64,000 nucleotides of DNA from Colwellia sp. (GTDB taxonomy: Bacteria > Pseudomonadota > Gammaproteobacteria > Enterobacterales > Alteromonadaceae). The DNA lies in contig NZ_JABSPA010000002.1 of the NCBI RefSeq assembly GCF_013214175.1, positions 744,001-808,000 on the forward strand. Direction: 5' to 3'. Position numbers and translations under genes: made by a program. Each line of letters begins with the position of its first letter. Positions within the stretch are counted from its first letter, which is position 1. Below the pieces are notes generated by a model that saw only the letters and a list, made by a program, of their open reading frames with translations, made no database searches and was not told where the DNA came from. This document shows positions 49,539-58,901 of the stretch, one piece after another.

Positions 49539-50467
49539 TATTGTTGTTGCTGACTTTTATTTTTTTAGCACTAACTTGTGTCTTTTATTGGCTTAAATAC
49601 CAACAAGAGCAGCGTTTACATGCAACCCGTATCAAACGCTACCTTAATTTAGCTACGGAAAAGCCTAGTGGTAGCGCTGAGTTATTATTATTCAAAAAAA
49701 ATAGCCAATACCAAGGCTGGCGGTTGTGGTTATATAGTAACCAACAAAGGTTTGTTGCTGTGATGCCAATGAAATTAGCGAGGCGCCTTGGCTTGGTTGC
49801 CGCTTTGTTGGCGCCTGTTTTATGGTGGAGCACCTCTGTATTGCCAATTTACGGACAATTGTTCGTTCTTATTAGCGTTTACCTTAGCGCAAGTCTATTT
49901 ATTGTCCGCTGGTTACAACACCGGAAATTACAACGCTTTGAAGCTGACTTTCCCACGGCTATTGCCAGTATTAGCCGCGCGGTAAGTGCTGGCGTATCGG
50001 TGCCCGCAGCCATTGCTCATGTAAGCCAAGAAATGGCTGGTCCTGTCGGGGAGACCTTTACCCGTATCAATGATTTATTAGCCATAGGTACTTCATTGGA
50101 GCAGGCATTACAAGATGCCGCTTTGCGGATACAACTTGCCAGTTTTAAGTTTTTTACCGTGACCTTGTTATTAAATCAACATGCGGGTGGTCAGTTGTCG
50201 CAAATATTAAGGCAACTGATGGAGAACTTGCATCAACGTAAAGCCTTGCAACAAAAGGTTTTAGCCATGACCGCTGAACCGCGCACCTCAGCAAAAATTA
50301 TTGCGCTAATGCCGCCTATGTTTCTCCTGTTATTTTGGTTCCAAGCCCGATATATTTTTGATTATTTGTTTTCTGACGAACGTGGGCAAGTGATAGCAAT
50401 TTATTCCTTTATCAGCATAGTTTTAGGGCTTTATATCATAGCAAAAATGAGTAAAGTCGATGAGTAG
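49535..50467 (+). CDS. tadB: Tad inner-membrane platform protein TadB
   Basis: The 310-residue protein has a T2SSF domain (about 145-275, FPTAIASISRAVSAGVSVPAAIAHVSQE) and four to five membrane segments, two near the N-terminus, one before the domain and two at the end. TadB and TadC together form the platform equivalent to PilC. It starts at an ATG that overlaps the tadA stop by 4 bases and ends 11 bases before tadC. Confidence 0.93.
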   Translation: MILLLLTFIFLALTCVFYWLKYQQEQRLHATRIKRYLNLATEKPSGSAELLLFKKNSQYQGWRLWLYSNQQRFVAVMPMKLARRLGLVAALLAPVLWWSTSVLPIYGQLFVLISVYLSASLFIVRWLQHRKLQRFEADFPTAIASISRAVSAGVSVPAAIAHVSQEMAGPVGETFTRINDLLAIGTSLEQALQDAALRIQLASFKFFTVTLLLNQHAGGQLSQILRQLMENLHQRKALQQKVLAMTAEPRTSAKIIALMPPMFLLLFWFQARYIFDYLFSDERGQVIAIYSFISIVLGLYIIAKMSKVDE

Positions 50468-53320: not shown

Positions 53321-54635
53321 CAGGATGAAAGTCCTACCTTACCGGGTTGACTCTCTAAAAAAACAGCAAGGTATGATTTTTGTTGCCGCATTATTGGTTA
53401 CCTTGCCGTTAATCGCTTTAGGCGCAATGGCCATTACCGTATCTTTTATTTTTGCTAAACAAATACAGCTTGGCAATGCCAGTGAAGTTGCCAGCATGTA
53501 TATCGCCATACGTGACGCCTCACATGAAGATAAGCAAACCGGCTCTGATTTATCGGCAGCAACAGCAATTATCAAGCAATTTAATGGTTTAGCTGATATC
53601 GGCACTGATAGTGTGCATATGAATGAAGATAATGGCATTTATCAGTTGAGTATAAGTAGTGAGTCTGAATATTTCTTACTGGGCGATCAAGGAGTCATAA
53701 GTATAAAAGGTTCAACAAATCTTGTAAGTGGCATTAACCAACATAACCTAGAACTCAGTATTATTATGGATTACTCCGGCTCTATGTACGGAGAAACCGA
53801 TGAAATGCAAGCTACGCTGGCGCAATTAACCGATTTACTCACCATAAAAGATGGCAGCTACCAACAAGCAAAAATTGCCATTACGCCTTTTAGTGATGGC
53901 ATTACCCTCTCATTGACCAATGATTACTATGAGCAGTCGAATCACTGTTTCGAATACTTGACCAGTAGTGGTAGTGACATCTGGAATCCAAATTATCCTT
54001 GGATTAGCCAGTACCTAGATTATGCCCAATTACAGCAAACAGTTGATGTCAGTTTAGAAGAAGAGAGCACCGACTCAGGTTGCTCCGGTCCCAATGCTAA
54101 GCGAATTTTGTTAACCGATAACAGGCAAAAAATAGACCGAGCTATTGTCGATGCAGGCAAAAGCAATGCACCAAGTGGCGGCACCAGTATAGATCAAGGT
54201 CTGTTATGGGGCTTGCGTATGTTAACGCCACAGTGGCAAGAATATCAAGAATTCTCCGATGAAGAGTTACCGAGCGAATTTAACCTTGTAGGTACAGAGA
54301 AAGTTGTATTGCTCATTTCTGATGGTGACCCAGGCGGCCGTACTCCTTGGTGTAAGTTAATTGAGCAAGAGAGCAGTTACTCTGCGGGCGGCTATGATAT
54401 TTGTCGTTTAGATAAACTACCGCTGTGCAGTTATATCAAGGAGACCCTTGGTGTACGTATAGTCTCCTTGTATTTTCCTAATAGTTACAACGACCAAGAA
54501 GCTGAGCAGCGTATGCGTTACTGCGCCAGTGACAACTCTTTTTATACCGCAAATTACGCCAGTGATTTAAAAGGCGTATTTAAAGAAATTATTGATAAAT
54601 TAAATGACGAACGCACCTTAGTGCTAACCCCTTAA
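53310..54635 (+). CDS. tadG: TadG: pilin-like N-terminus with von Willebrand A domain
   Basis: The 441-residue protein has a Tad-like N-terminal segment (KKQQGMIFVAALLVTLPLIALGAMA), then a soluble part, and a vWA domain with the metal-site DYSGS at about 154-158, plus PSGGTSIDQGLLWG and VVLLISDGDPGG. Several Cys in the C-terminal third could form disulfides. TadG-type proteins are exported with the machine and are implicated in adhesion or assembly. Its stop overlaps the start of the thioredoxin gene (TAATG). Confidence 0.9.
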   Translation: MMTNRMKVLPYRVDSLKKQQGMIFVAALLVTLPLIALGAMAITVSFIFAKQIQLGNASEVASMYIAIRDASHEDKQTGSDLSAATAIIKQFNGLADIGTDSVHMNEDNGIYQLSISSESEYFLLGDQGVISIKGSTNLVSGINQHNLELSIIMDYSGSMYGETDEMQATLAQLTDLLTIKDGSYQQAKIAITPFSDGITLSLTNDYYEQSNHCFEYLTSSGSDIWNPNYPWISQYLDYAQLQQTVDVSLEEESTDSGCSGPNAKRILLTDNRQKIDRAIVDAGKSNAPSGGTSIDQGLLWGLRMLTPQWQEYQEFSDEELPSEFNLVGTEKVVLLISDGDPGGRTPWCKLIEQESSYSAGGYDICRLDKLPLCSYIKETLGVRIVSLYFPNSYNDQEAEQRMRYCASDNSFYTANYASDLKGVFKEIIDKLNDERTLVLTP

Positions 54636-54646
54636 TGAGGCCCCAG

Positions 54647-55183
54647 ATGAACACTAGAACTTTCCCCAATAAGCAATGTTTTACCCTGAGTAGAATGCCG
54701 GATATTTTTAACGGTGTTAAAGCTGTATTACTTAGTTTAACTATGTTATTTGCCATGACAGGCACTGCCCAAGCATTGCAGCGCGGCGATAGTTTACCGC
54801 CAGAGCTAGCCGCTAAACTAGCACTTGATCCCGAAAAAATTACTATGGTTGATTTTTTTGCCTCTTGGTGTGTTTCTTGTCGCATAGAGCTGCCTGAAGT
54901 TGATCATTTGTCAAAAGAATTAAAAGGTGAAAGCGTTGAGTTTGTTGGTATACAAGTTGATGAAGATGTTGAAGTAGGCGAAAAGTTTTTAAAAGAAATA
55001 GCGCTATCGTTCCGTGTTATTGATGATCAAAGCCAGGAAGTCATAGGTGTTTTTGAACCTATTGGTATGCCTGCCTTGTATTACATTCAGCACAATAAAG
55101 TTTTGGGTATTAGGTTTGGTGCTATCCCTCAAATTGGCGAGGTCATCAAGCAGGATTTAACCCAATTGGGAGCGCTTAAGTGA
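54647..55183 (+). CDS. Exported thioredoxin-fold protein (TlpA-like)
   Basis: The 178-residue protein has a long signal sequence or membrane anchor (hydrophobic at about 22-43, ending TGTAQA) and a thioredoxin fold with FFASWCVSCRIELPEVD, the redox pair being Cys75 and Cys78. A cis-Pro segment, PIGMPALYYI, is also present. Chosen start: ATG at 54647 with GAGG 6 bases upstream; the ATG at 54635 overlaps the tadG stop. It is a periplasmic thiol reductase or oxidase of unknown target. It could serve Cys pairs in TadF, TadG or the CGC tail of the next protein. Confidence 0.85.
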   Translation: MNTRTFPNKQCFTLSRMPDIFNGVKAVLLSLTMLFAMTGTAQALQRGDSLPPELAAKLALDPEKITMVDFFASWCVSCRIELPEVDHLSKELKGESVEFVGIQVDEDVEVGEKFLKEIALSFRVIDDQSQEVIGVFEPIGMPALYYIQHNKVLGIRFGAIPQIGEVIKQDLTQLGALK

Positions 55184-55788
55184 AATCACACATTAACCTT
55201 CTAATCAGCGCGGTAGTGCTGGTTTTTTCAGGACAAGTTATTGCTGCAGAAAAACTAACCTTACTGCCGGCTGATAAACAAATGAGCAGCGAAGAATTTA
55301 GTTATGCGCTTGCCCAAGAACCCAACCCAGGAACGAGTAATGCTCGGGTGGTGAAAAAATACAAAACTAAGGGCCGTACTAGTGCAACAAGTAAATATCC
55401 AGCCACTGATGAACATACGGAACAAGGAAGAGAGCAAGGCAAATCGTTAACAACAATTACTTTGGCTGAAAAAAAGAATAATGCAGGGAATTCAGTAGGA
55501 TCAGCTAAGCAGGTTAAACCTTTGTTGGCATTAGTCGCAATAGATCAAAAACCACCACCATCGGTTAGCCCTGCAGGGCAATGGTTAAATAAAGGTTTTA
55601 CTTGGATTGATGATTGGTTTATCGACAAAGAAGTGAAGCCTTGGCAAAAAGCTAAATTAGCTGAGCCTGTTATGTCACCCGCTGGTGTCGCACCAGTGAT
55701 GAAAAAATTTGCTAGCAAAATATATATTTCAAAAGCTGCCACCTTTGGCGGTGATGGTATTGCCGGTGGCGGTTGTGGCTGTAAATAA
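55180..55788 (+). CDS. Exported DUF4266-type protein with C-terminal CGC tail
   Basis: The 202-residue protein has a signal peptide (to about residue 22, VIAAEK) and a basic low-complexity middle (about 55-120). The C-terminal DUF4266-like region (about 152-202) begins VKPWQKAKLAEPVM, includes the conserved IYISKAATFGGDG and ends in GGGCGCK, with Cys199 and Cys201. Family members I know are short, about 70-100 residues, so the long N-terminal part is unusual. The start is a GTG overlapping the thioredoxin stop by 4 bases. Function unknown; the neighbours suggest a redox role. Confidence 0.8.
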   Translation: MKSHINLLISAVVLVFSGQVIAAEKLTLLPADKQMSSEEFSYALAQEPNPGTSNARVVKKYKTKGRTSATSKYPATDEHTEQGREQGKSLTTITLAEKKNNAGNSVGSAKQVKPLLALVAIDQKPPPSVSPAGQWLNKGFTWIDDWFIDKEVKPWQKAKLAEPVMSPAGVAPVMKKFASKIYISKAATFGGDGIAGGGCGCK

Positions 55789-55823: not shown

Positions 55824-57044
55824 ATGAATAAAAAAATTAAAATCAGTTTACTTAGTTGTACAGCTATTGGCTCTGGTCTAGCTCATGCTGAGCAAGTATT
55901 GTCTTTGCATCAAATGCAATACCAAGAAGATGATGATCGCATTAAGGTTGCTGATACCTCACTGGCGCTAAAATTAGATTTTGGTGTCGATTATAGTTTG
56001 GACTTATCACTTGGTTATGACTCGGTTACTGGCGCATCACCTACTTGGCAAATAGCCAATTCGGGGCAGATATCAGCCAACGAAGCCCTGTTTCGTCAAA
56101 ATGAGTTAGAACAGGGTCAGGCGATGACAGAGGAAACCTTATTAGGTTATGCCCATGATGTGAGTCAGTACCAAATACAAAGAGTGCCGTTAGAAGATAC
56201 CCGAAAATCAGCAGCAGCAGCGTTAACCATACGCGATGTCTACCGTAATGAGTGGGTTCTTGGTCTTGCTCATTCAGAAGAAGATGATTACAAAAGTAGC
56301 AGTGTTTCAGCCTCATATTTGTTGTTTTTAGATAAAGGAAAAAACCGCTCGGTTAATATAGGTTTTGCTTACTTAAATGACAAAACTTTAGTGTTTGGCA
56401 CGGGTTACCAAAGCCGCACGGAGGAAAAAATTCAGGTGATTAACTTTGAAACCGGACTTACTCAGGTGTTGTCACCAACCAGTGTTTTTGATGTGAAGTT
56501 ATTTTTCAATCACGATAATGGCTATTTGAGTAATCATTATCTGACCATATTGCGCGGCATAGATATTAATGAAGATGATGTTATTACCGATGACGAGTAT
56601 TTTTTAGCATCCGATAGCAGACCAGATGTGCGCAATGGTTTTGGTACTAAATTAAGTTACTCCACGCAATTTTGGCCATGGCTTACCGGGCAGTTTAGTT
56701 ACCGTTATTATCAAGATAGTTGGAGCATAAACTCGCATACCGCTAGTGCAAGTTTAAGTTTTGAAATATTTGATGGCGTATTTATCACCCCCGAATACAT
56801 TCGTTACCAACAAGGCCAAGCAGAGTTTTATCTTAATCCCAACGTTAAAGAGCCTTATTTTACCGCTAGTGGTGACGGCAGTAATGATACTCGCTTAGGT
56901 GATTTTTCTGCTGATACCTATGGCTTGATAATCAGCTATCAAGTGACCAGTGATTGGCAACTCGATTTAGCCGTTAATCGTTACCAACAAAGCAATCAGT
57001 TTGCGGCGAGCTGGGCGGTAATGGGAGTGAATTATCGCTTCTAG
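55824..57044 (+). CDS. DUF3570 outer-membrane beta-barrel protein
   Basis: The 406-residue protein has a signal peptide ending at about residue 22 (LAHA) and alternating beta-strand segments to a C-terminal aromatic (VNYRF), typical of an outer-membrane barrel. It matches DUF3570 in order and in the early motif LGYDSVTGASP. Residues 66-72 (D-S-V-T-G-A-S) fit the D-x-x-[ST]-G-A-[ST] pattern where ApbE attaches FMN, so Ser72 is a candidate flavin site. It lies 35 bases after the DUF4266 gene and 58 before the apbE-like gene. Confidence 0.85.
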   Translation: MNKKIKISLLSCTAIGSGLAHAEQVLSLHQMQYQEDDDRIKVADTSLALKLDFGVDYSLDLSLGYDSVTGASPTWQIANSGQISANEALFRQNELEQGQAMTEETLLGYAHDVSQYQIQRVPLEDTRKSAAAALTIRDVYRNEWVLGLAHSEEDDYKSSSVSASYLLFLDKGKNRSVNIGFAYLNDKTLVFGTGYQSRTEEKIQVINFETGLTQVLSPTSVFDVKLFFNHDNGYLSNHYLTILRGIDINEDDVITDDEYFLASDSRPDVRNGFGTKLSYSTQFWPWLTGQFSYRYYQDSWSINSHTASASLSFEIFDGVFITPEYIRYQQGQAEFYLNPNVKEPYFTASGDGSNDTRLGDFSADTYGLIISYQVTSDWQLDLAVNRYQQSNQFAASWAVMGVNYRF

Positions 57045-57102
57045 TAGCCAAGCTGCGGATCGGCCTGAGCAAAGACAAATTTATAATTGGCAGTTTTGTG
57101 CG

Positions 57103-58002
57103 ATGACGGTTAACTGTCAATTATTATTAGTGGCAGATGATATTGAGCATGCCAATAAAGTTGCCAGTGCGGTGCAAAAACAAACCTTAGCGTTAGAGAA
57201 GAAATATAACTTTTATCAAGCAGACTCTTGGTTAAATAAAGCGGTGAATAATCGTGCTTTATCGCAAGTACATCTTGAGCCAGAAAGCTTAGCTATTTTT
57301 ACCCGTGTTCGTGAATTATCACAAGCAAGCCAAGGGATATTTGATATTTGTGTTGGCACCATTAAAAAAGCAGCAACACAAAGGCCGCAGTTAACTAGAG
57401 CGCAACTATTTGCCAAATACCAAGATGCTATGGGCTTAACCAGTTGGCAAATTAGTGGCAACTTCTTGCAGTTTAATAACAGTAATACTCAGTTTGATCT
57501 AGGTGGCGTAGTGAAAGAATACAGTGTTGACCTTGCAATGGCGCTGTGTAAAAAACAGGGCATAACAGCGGGTTTAATTAATTTTGGTGGCGATATTATT
57601 TCTTGGGGTCGTAAGCCAGATAATAGCGCCTTTCGCGTAGCTATTCAGCACCCAAAAGTTGTTGATAAAATTTGTGGCAGCATTGCTCTGTCTGATCAGG
57701 CTTTAGCTAGCTCAGGTCATTATCATCGACAGTTTAATTACGGCGCTGAGCAAGGTTCTCATATTCTTGCTGGTCAAGGTGTTGCCCAACAAGTGTTAGC
57801 TGTTTCGGTGTTAAGTCAAAGCGTGCTCACCAGTGGTGTTTTTAGTACGGCACTGAGTATTGAGCCAACGTTAGTTAATAGTCGTTATGCCCAGGAGCAT
57901 ATCAAAGCAATATTTATCGATGAAGCGATGAACTTTCATCAAGATATTGAATTTTTATCAAATACAGGCTGCATTAAGCACAGCCTCAAGGAAGCCATTT
58001 AA
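57103..58002 (+). CDS. ApbE-like FAD:protein FMN transferase
   Basis: The product of at least 299 residues belongs to the ApbE family, with FDLGGVVKEYSVDLAMALC, LINFGGDIISWG and ASSGHYHRQF in order. ApbE attaches FMN to Thr/Ser of exported proteins. Two usual sites differ here: the H-I-x-D-P segment reads HILAGQG, and the late metal-site A-D-A-L-x-T reads SGVFST. The coordinates use the first ATG, but homology starts about ten residues upstream (IYNWQFCAM), where only rare start codons such as ATT at 57079 or 57031 are in frame. No signal peptide is visible. It overlaps the next gene by TAATG. Confidence 0.8.
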   Translation: MTVNCQLLLVADDIEHANKVASAVQKQTLALEKKYNFYQADSWLNKAVNNRALSQVHLEPESLAIFTRVRELSQASQGIFDICVGTIKKAATQRPQLTRAQLFAKYQDAMGLTSWQISGNFLQFNNSNTQFDLGGVVKEYSVDLAMALCKKQGITAGLINFGGDIISWGRKPDNSAFRVAIQHPKVVDKICGSIALSDQALASSGHYHRQFNYGAEQGSHILAGQGVAQQVLAVSVLSQSVLTSGVFSTALSIEPTLVNSRYAQEHIKAIFIDEAMNFHQDIEFLSNTGCIKHSLKEAI

Positions 58003-58901
58003 TGAACATGCAACAAACGGCAATTACATCATCTCCGTTAACATTAACGCCATTAACATTAGCCCCGTTAGCATTTGCTATTACCTTGGGGTTAACACTT
58101 GCCAGCCCAAGTTCTGTACAAGCACAAACGTATCAGCAGCAAGATTTTTCACAGCAAAACTTTTCAATGCAAAAGCTTTCACCGCAAGAGAAGTTCTCAT
58201 GGTCAATTTTTGCTGGTATTACTAATGGTGGAGATACCATGGCTCTTGGTGGTACAGACGTGACTTATAGTCGAGATGGAGAGCAGGTAACTGGTGTTAG
58301 CTACAGTGAAAAACTTAAAACGGGCGGCTTTGCCGTATTAGGGCTAGGTGCAAATTATATAATAGATGAGCGTTTTAGCATTCAGTTAAACGGTGCTTAT
58401 CATTGGGATCGTATTAGTGATCCTGATATAAAATTTACTCGTCTTGAACTTGAGCTTATACCTTACTACCAGCTTACCGATACTTTACAGCTTGGCCTAG
58501 GGCTTGTTAGTCATCTTAATATTAAGTTAGATGAGCAATCTACACCGCTTTTGGTAAAACCGGCACGAAGTGAAGAAGATACTGAATTACGCGTATTTAA
58601 CGAATTTTCTGAAATGTTAGCACCACAGGCACAAGGACTAATCAATGGACAAGCGCGTACAGATGATGACTTAGTTATTAACTCACAAGCTGATTTTAGC
58701 ACTGCGACAGGTTATTTGGCATCACTGGTATATCAGTTACCACAATGGCACAGTAAGGTGGAATTTAGAGCTGTATTTATTGATTATAAAGCCGATGTGA
58801 CTAGCAATATTGCTAACCCAGAGCAGGTTCTAGACACTAACACAGGTGAAGTGGCGTTTGATGCCCGCCATGCCGGTATTTATTGGCACTTTGTTTTTTA
58901 A
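58002..58901 (+). CDS. Outer-membrane beta-barrel protein, unassigned
   Basis: I do not recognise a named family. The 299-residue protein has a long signal peptide with a TLTPLTLAPLA repeat and a likely cleavage after VQA (residue 41). A Gln-rich spacer follows, then beta-strand-rich sequence with alternating hydrophobic residues (FAVLGLGANYIIDERFSIQLNGAYHW) and a final Phe (GIYWHFVF), typical of small outer-membrane barrels. It closes the long Tad-redox run and overlaps the apbE-like gene by TAATG. Two terminators follow. Confidence 0.75.
   Translation: MNMQQTAITSSPLTLTPLTLAPLAFAITLGLTLASPSSVQAQTYQQQDFSQQNFSMQKLSPQEKFSWSIFAGITNGGDTMALGGTDVTYSRDGEQVTGVSYSEKLKTGGFAVLGLGANYIIDERFSIQLNGAYHWDRISDPDIKFTRLELELIPYYQLTDTLQLGLGLVSHLNIKLDEQSTPLLVKPARSEEDTELRVFNEFSEMLAPQAQGLINGQARTDDDLVINSQADFSTATGYLASLVYQLPQWHSKVEFRAVFIDYKADVTSNIANPEQVLDTNTGEVAFDARHAGIYWHFVF

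Follow-up and report, generated by a model that had tools for sequence, protein, structure and literature searches.

A conserved flavinylation motif in a DUF3570 protein of Colwellia and the ApbE clade encoded beside it

The DUF3570 protein encoded in the 64,000-nucleotide stretch of Colwellia sp. DNA analyzed here (the window) contains a single conserved motif of the kind modified by ApbE flavin transferases, and the next gene encodes an ApbE of a clade that seems to lack an export signal and shows two paired residue exchanges. By analogy with a published homologue, the DUF3570 barrel very probably carries a covalently attached flavin. The reading that we favor, to which as a whole we give slightly better than an even chance, is that a cytosolic ApbE whose metal site has been rebuilt would attach the flavin to Ser72 prior to export and that the FMN would be exposed at the outer mouth of the barrel. 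The ApbE encoded by the next gene would move FMN from FAD onto Ser72 of this single-site DUF3570, acting in the cytosol on the unfolded precursor, ahead of Sec export and barrel insertion. Its magnesium site would differ from the usual one by the loss of an Asp and the gain of a Glu one residue past a conserved Lys. In the finished 16-strand barrel the FMN would lie at the outer mouth, beside a conserved acidic and aromatic rim, and the periplasmic thioredoxin, together with the CXC tail of the DUF4266 protein, would supply the electrons that the FMN hands on to an acceptor outside the cell.

The idea of an earlier note on this DNA, that the DUF3570 barrel is flavinylated, is correct but not new, because Meheust et al. 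(2021, eLife; PMC8238504) have already shown flavinylation of a DUF3570 protein. This was the only paper on DUF3570 or DUF4266 found in the open literature, and subscription papers may already report the signal-less clade or the barrel. In its accessible text there is no mention of a barrel topology or of a signal-less or cytosolic ApbE in DUF3570 clusters, and the accessible parts of PMC11334425 and its preprint PMC10979944 do not mention DUF3570. The signal-less ApbE clade with its exchanged metal site and the predicted position at the outer mouth go beyond the published points found in these sources.

The flavinylation motif and its gene cluster

Positions 56019-56039 of the window read GACTCGGTTACTGGCGCATCA and encode DSVTGAS, residues 66 to 72 of the DUF3570 ORF (Table 1), which match, as the earlier note had pointed out, the motif D-x-x-[ST]-G-A-[ST] as defined in a review according to which these seven residues suffice for ApbE (PMC12052999). 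This was the sole occurrence among 49 window ORFs of at least 90 aa without strong overlap (18,855 aa in all), where 0.09 were expected by per-protein shuffling, which rules out a chance motif; given the composition of the DUF3570 protein itself, the chance of finding it is 0.0034. In an alignment of 37 sequences, the window copy included, D66, G70, A71 and P73 were invariant, position 69 was Ser (33) or Thr (4) and position 72 was Ser (34) or Thr (3). The five positions whose conservation the earlier note had proposed to check (D66, T69, G70, A71 and S72) are thus kept in 37/37 sequences as D, [ST], G, A and [ST]. The block D66-P73 also stood out in an alignment of 144 DUF3570 sequences from the whole family, which leaves out the window copy, L062, L063, L269, L270 and frames below 150 bits or 330 aa. 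The further suggestion that the motif recurs across DUF3570 holds for 37/37 close relatives and fails for a sister type that mostly lacks the Gly, which is described below.

The DUF3570 protein of Chlorobium luteolum was flavinylated when coexpressed with its cognate ApbE in E. coli, and its fluorescence was lost only when the serines of both [S/T]GA[S/T] motifs were replaced (PMC8238504), which by analogy supports the reading of the window protein as an ApbE substrate. The two systems share the Pfam family, the [ST]GA[ST] motif and the set of thioredoxin-like, DUF4266, DUF3570 and ApbE genes, but they differ in the number of sites, two in C. luteolum (PMC8238504) and one in the window protein and its close relatives. 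Since exactly one [ST]GA[ST] was present in each of the 37 aligned proteins, a second site was rejected for the window protein. Flavinylation of this protein is, by the same analogy, very likely; our confidence that Ser72 would be the modified residue is high, and that the ApbE of the adjacent gene would be responsible for it we consider likely. An unmodified structural turn of the barrel would be a very improbable explanation of the motif: Gly-Ala-Ser-Pro would suit a strand end, but the Asp and the final Ser/Thr are conserved too, the motif is coupled to ApbE genes, and the C. luteolum experiment (PMC8238504) speaks for modification. The same D-x-x-[ST]-G-A-[ST] pattern is shared by NqrC and NqrB (DGFSGATM and DALSGATL in the nqr genes of this genome), which differ from DUF3570 in fold and in membrane, and their ApbE, unlike that of the window, has a lipoprotein signal and keeps both a Gly and the magnesium-ligand Asp that are considered below.

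The DUF3570 gene is the third of five genes on the same strand (Table 1), in the order thioredoxin, DUF4266, DUF3570, ApbE and exported protein. Its product matched the Pfam model with 200.4 bits (cut-off 25) over 372 of the 406 residues, and the ApbE matched its own with 148.4 bits (cut-off 25.6). The latter was far under the NCBI equivalog cut-off for ApbE (64.3 vs 498), which the nqr ApbE of the same genome misses too (333.7), and the thioredoxin reached 52 bits with the ResA model, under NCBI's cut-off. The earlier note was right about an apbE-like gene downstream but placed it too far away, as it is the very next gene. The exported protein was matched beside ApbE in just 6 of the 38 fetched loci, those of the nearest relatives (L062-L067), and its membership in the cluster is uncertain. 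Near-identical copies of the window cluster occur in Colwellia (L062-L064). Among the 38 fetched loci, the order thioredoxin, DUF4266, DUF3570, ApbE was kept where the contig spans all four genes; the exceptions, L065 without ApbE and L098 without thioredoxin and DUF4266, lie near contig or stretch ends. An ApbE was present within the fetched stretch at 95 of 118 motif-bearing DUF3570 loci, and none was seen at 23.

Table 1. Features of the DUF3570 cluster in window coordinates
Feature	Position	Strand	Basis
TlpA/ResA-like periplasmic thioredoxin (CVSC)	54635..55183	+	PF00578 + PF00085
DUF4266 protein, C-terminal C-G-C (ends GGGCGCK)	55180..55788	+	PF14086, 51.5 bits
DUF3570 protein, 406 aa, Sec-type signal at residues 1-22 (by eye), predicted 16-strand outer-membrane barrel	55824..57044	+	PF12094
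Flavinylation motif D66-S-V-T-G-A-S72, predicted FMN acceptor Ser72	56019..56039 (Ser72 codon 56037-56039)	+	Conservation and motif definition in PMC12052999
Predicted extracellular loop joining strands 3 and 4 (residues 70-123), begins G70-A71-S72	56031..56192	+	AlphaFold2 strand list
ApbE flavin transferase without signal peptide	57079..58002 (57103-58002 from first ATG)	+	PF02424
K138-E139 codons of ApbE, Glu where signal-bearing ApbEs have Gly	57514..57519	+	Alignment
H220 codon of ApbE, equivalent of V. cholerae His257, kept	57760..57762	+	Alignment
G245 codon of ApbE, aligned with the Mg-ligand residues Asp284 of T. pallidum and Asp301 of L. monocytogenes	57835..57837	+	Alignment
Exported protein, family unassigned, weak barrel match	58002..58901	+	OMP_b-brl, E 0.023, under cut-off

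Clusters of apbE with DUF3570, thioredoxin-like and DUF4266 genes, partly with DsbD, have been described, some clusters have been tied to iron, and an electron flow from DsbD to thioredoxin and on to the flavin has been proposed (PMC8238504). The four-gene set occurs without DsbD in 316 clusters of that study, and the window is of the same kind, as no DsbD-like gene was seen by eye among the ORFs between positions 50000 and 62000. A DsbD gene is found instead in a second DUF3570 cluster of the same genome (L173; G000:C16:94000-113999), which also has a DUF4266 lipoprotein, a thioredoxin, a signal-less ApbE and a DUF3570 protein with three motifs (DSISGAS, DSITGAS and DAFTGAS); its counterparts L175 and L176 belong to two other genomes of the genus. 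Two lipoproteins of this second cluster carry one D-x-x-T-G-A-S motif each, kept in L175 and L176: one of 660 aa with a weak propeller match (L173:10400-12379, minus strand; DGFTGASE) and another of 1018 aa with only a weak match to an Ig-like domain (L173:14821-17874, minus strand; DATTGASE). Going by their sequences, they are possibly further ApbE substrates, or else the motifs are chance repeats.

An ApbE clade without export signal and with exchanged residues

Judged from its sequence, the cognate ApbE seems to have no signal peptide. The first ATG, GTG or TTG of its frame is the ATG at 57103, inside the first ApbE strand, and as this strand begins upstream of it, the ATT at 57079 is a possible start. 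No ATG, GTG or TTG precedes the in-strand ATG in L062, L064 and L067 either (positions 57079-57105), and conservation against L064 starts near CAA-ATT, a hint of an ATT start. Initiation at 57079 would leave at most about 9 residues before the first ApbE strand, and initiation at 57103 would place the N-terminus at the strand itself. The ApbE frame continues open in the upstream direction, which raised the idea of a frameshift fusion between DUF3570 and ApbE; this was rejected by reasoning, as it would bury the C-terminal strand end of the barrel.

The N-terminus before the A-M-T-x-x-C core was short and polar in 22 relatives. Using the maximal 12-residue hydropathy before the core as a crude stand-in for a signal-peptide predictor, and with any reading inside the DUF3570 gene trimmed off, we found values of at least 1.3 in 3 of the 95 ApbEs of motif-bearing loci and of at least 2.0 in none (0/95). 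Fewer than 20 residues preceded the core in 43 of these 95; L230 is a long reading frame whose N-terminal length is not meaningful, and the core was located by alignment and not by its pattern, which is misplaced in L212. Without trimming, 2.0 was exceeded in 3 of 91 clade ApbEs (L069, L084 and L109), and the stretches concerned lie partly in the DUF3570 gene. On this scale 142 of 143 DUF3570 proteins reached 1.3, that of the window being signal-like with 1.57, and all 30 control ApbEs scored 2.25-3.27, each with a lipobox; the controls are the best-scoring 30 ApbE loci, and only the one from this genome was seen, by gene order and motifs, beside nqr-like genes. This nqr-linked protein starts with MNKLKLVLLTVLLISLSAC, a lipoprotein signal, and it is one of four ApbEs of the genome, the other three being signal-less and belonging to its three DUF3570 clusters.

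Transfer in the cytosol would be the most likely course because this ApbE is without an export signal while DUF3570 has one, and we hold it to be moderately likely. The C. luteolum DUF3570 was largely insoluble and mostly in the lysed-cell pellet, yet it was flavinylated, which suggests that an unfolded, unexported chain can be a substrate; that study states constructs with truncated signal peptides for its DUF2271 pair and says that C. luteolum followed "a similar cloning strategy" (PMC8238504). A comparable enzyme is the ApbE of Klebsiella pneumoniae, which likewise has no signal peptide and works in the cytosol on a soluble fumarate reductase (PMC12052999), although its substrate stays in the cytosol whereas the DUF3570 of the window would be exported to the outer membrane. 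The ordinary published case would be a DUF3570 flavinylated in the periplasm by an ApbE that gets there without a recognizable signal. That compartment offers FAD and folded substrates, the nqr ApbE, like other ApbEs that have been studied, is a periplasmic lipoprotein (PMC12052999), and DUF3570 proteins of the S-S-A-S type described below adjoin signal-bearing ApbEs (L256, L263 and L267). We nevertheless regard this case as unlikely, as the missing signal is common to the whole clade, the sequence ahead of the ApbE core is too short for one in many members, and true cytosolic ApbEs such as that of Klebsiella exist (PMC12052999).

Concerning the metal site, the magnesium ligands of ApbE are Asp284, with Ala162 and Thr288, in T. 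pallidum (PMC5655446) and include Asp301 in L. monocytogenes FmnB, where activity was strongly lowered or lost when magnesium- and FAD-binding residues were replaced by Ala (PMC8906456); the catalytic His of the V. cholerae enzyme is His257 (PMC12052999). The place of the ligand Asp is occupied by Gly in the window ApbE and in 92/92 covered DUF3570-linked ApbEs, and the residue after the conserved Lys is Glu in 93/95 of them (one has Lys, one is unread), with the catalytic His kept in 93/93 covered. The controls have Gly, Asp and His at the three places in 30/30 cases, which represent only 10 clusters at 62% identity. The 95 DUF3570-linked sequences form 80 clusters at 90% identity and 58 at 62%, of which 78 and 56, respectively, have the Glu, and the Gly at the Asp place was found in 56/56 covered clusters at 62%. 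In a tree of 137 sequences, an edge with a support of 0.97 divides the Glu/Gly form from all others; the one misplaced sequence is partial and itself has Glu. A model of the clade was matched at 184 bits or more in 33 of 229 class-sample genomes, and the 30 clade loci fetched from this sample had Glu in 29 and Lys in one, with Gly in 29/29 covered. Except for G459, with a clade ApbE and no DUF3570 listed, these genomes (32 of the 33) are in the list of DUF3570-positive genomes (95/369), and in at least 6 of the 32 the ApbE lies on another contig than the listed DUF3570.

From the alignment, the gained Glu may take over metal binding from the lost Asp; that the two places are near in space we infer from a backbone ligand a few residues ahead of the Glu. 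By analogy with the FmnB substitutions (PMC8906456), the loss of the Asp could also mean lost activity, in which event DUF3570 would either stay unmodified or receive its flavin from the nqr-type ApbE in the periplasm of the same cell. The change of Asp to Gly in 92/92 covered sequences would fit this, and this genome also encodes a working ApbE of the periplasmic type. Yet the clade retains the catalytic His, the Lys and, for the most part, the Thr ligand, the loss of the Asp is paired with the new Glu and the gene stays beside DUF3570 in widely separated Pseudomonadota families, all of which is unlike a dying enzyme. As the published DUF3570 also needed its cognate ApbE, an enzyme possibly of another clade (PMC8238504), an inactive neighbor seems, by analogy, distinctly improbable.

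Predicted barrel topology and position of the flavin

An AlphaFold2 model of the window DUF3570 built on 37 sequences had 16 main strands (mean pLDDT 81.5, pTM 0.79), and the same number was predicted for a relative from Iodobacter whose loop is shorter (second model; 21 sequences, pLDDT 78.8, pTM 0.74). Foldseek matched the OmpG, BcsC, PelB, AlgE and FadL barrels with query-normalised TM-scores of 0.35-0.52 in most rows; those of OmpG, BcsC, PelB and AlgE have 14 to 18 strands. Both chain ends of such barrels usually face the periplasm, and the sides of the model were assigned by this rule. It places residues 36-40, 70-123, 153-155, 190-199, 234-268, 299-302, 331-360 and 390-393 in outside loops and the remaining turns, all short, on the inside. 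Strand 3 (residues 57-69) would then run outward, so that T69-G70-A71-S72 would sit at its outer end and the motif at the predicted extracellular end of the strand. In the Iodobacter model strand 3 is long (53-73) and has the motif (residues 62-68) in its upper part. The earlier note had considered the case of a motif buried in a transmembrane strand; this was not seen in the window model, the site being at the predicted strand end. The DUF3570 of L115 (G034:C39) carries a further SGAS (FHKSGASGD) in the last of its long loops, likewise on the predicted outer side.

The predicted outer side comprises 219 of 381 positions and holds 34 of the 40 most conserved columns of the 144-sequence alignment (hypergeometric P 1e-4), among them D66, A71, S72, P73, D125, R127, E153, D155 and H238, as well as D264, R266, D298, W300, D355 and R357. 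The outer and inner strand thirds did not differ significantly in conservation in this alignment (Mann-Whitney P 0.31), so the excess on the outer side is due to the most conserved columns and not to the strand thirds as a group. Outer loops are usually the variable part of porins, and conserved columns on that side of the model therefore suggest that the functional site lies at the barrel's outer mouth. A location of the FMN on the outer side or in the mouth of the lumen is, on this model, fairly likely. Electron donors in the periplasm are hard to reconcile with a flavin at the surface unless the barrel is crossed by some further element.

A sister type of DUF3570 and the meaning of a possible surface flavin

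The pattern [ST]GA[ST] was found in 118 of 148 DUF3570 loci and was absent in 30, counted on stop-to-stop frames (the motif rows of L248, L258 and L268 lie outside the site) and including duplicates (L062 and L063 are nearly identical to the window locus, a further pair is L092 and L106, and L110/L173 and L124/L176 overlap). A DUF3570 family that always has [ST]GA[ST] was thus rejected; L111 has Q in place of the motif Asp. Rows in which L013, L015 and L023 had been read on the wrong strand were left out. Many of the pattern-less proteins read D-x-[IV]-[ST]-S-A-S-[IV]-D-V-x-[ST]-x-A-S, and as this sister type has D-x-[IV]-[ST]-[SGN]-A-S at the place of the motif, the Gly is not universal. The S-S-A-S proteins (e.g. 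L177-L179, L256, L263, L267 and, in Hymenobacter, L269) belong to the same Pfam family as the window protein and some have an ApbE nearby, but their motif Gly is mostly Ser and a second A-S copy often follows 8 residues on. Unlike the window ApbE, the ApbEs of this type (L177-L179, L256, L263 and L267) have the usual Gly and Asp and, by eye, a signal. The idea that motif-less DUF3570 genes have no ApbE nearby was also rejected, as it is adjacent in L256, L263 and L267 and about 10.5 kb off in L177-L179. Five motif-less loci (L210, L211, L221, L234 and L238) have an ApbE of the signal-less Glu/Gly clade, and their DUF3570 proteins read T-G-S-S, S-G-S-S or nothing by pattern. Since a change of Gly to Ala halved the flavinylation of another substrate (PMC12052999), the Ser form may, by analogy, still be an ApbE substrate.

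Some loci showed other arrangements. In L177 and L179 (G314:C16 and G306:C4) the S-S-A-S DUF3570 lies in a cluster of roughly 15 kb with a thioredoxin, large lipoproteins, one of which matches the middle domain of hydrazine synthase alpha, a Tat-type protein (by eye) and a signal-bearing ApbE. In Hymenobacter sp. DG25B (L270:7393-8645), genes for ApbE and DUF4266 accompany a DUF3570 gene that the annotation splits into two adjacent pieces. DUF3570 also forms the start of open frames of 912 and 920 aa in L008/L105 (G102:C1) and L181/L209 (G665:C1), with about 400 residues after the DUF3570 part in L008.

The exchange of Asp to Gly and of Gly to Glu sets this ApbE clade apart from the studied enzymes by a residue signature, and it opens a direct mutational test of metal binding by ApbE. 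A cytosolic ApbE, if true, would run against the usual view of extracytosolic flavinylation after export, and a bulky cofactor would have to survive export within an unfolded chain. If the flavin is at the outer mouth, Gram-negative bacteria would have a heme-free electron transfer across the outer membrane. The complete scenario, in which an ApbE clade with a relocated carboxylate would act in the cytosol, the holo-chain would pass through Sec and BAM and the surface flavin would be the counterpart of the porin-cytochrome conduits, is offered tentatively, with somewhat less than an even chance of being right.
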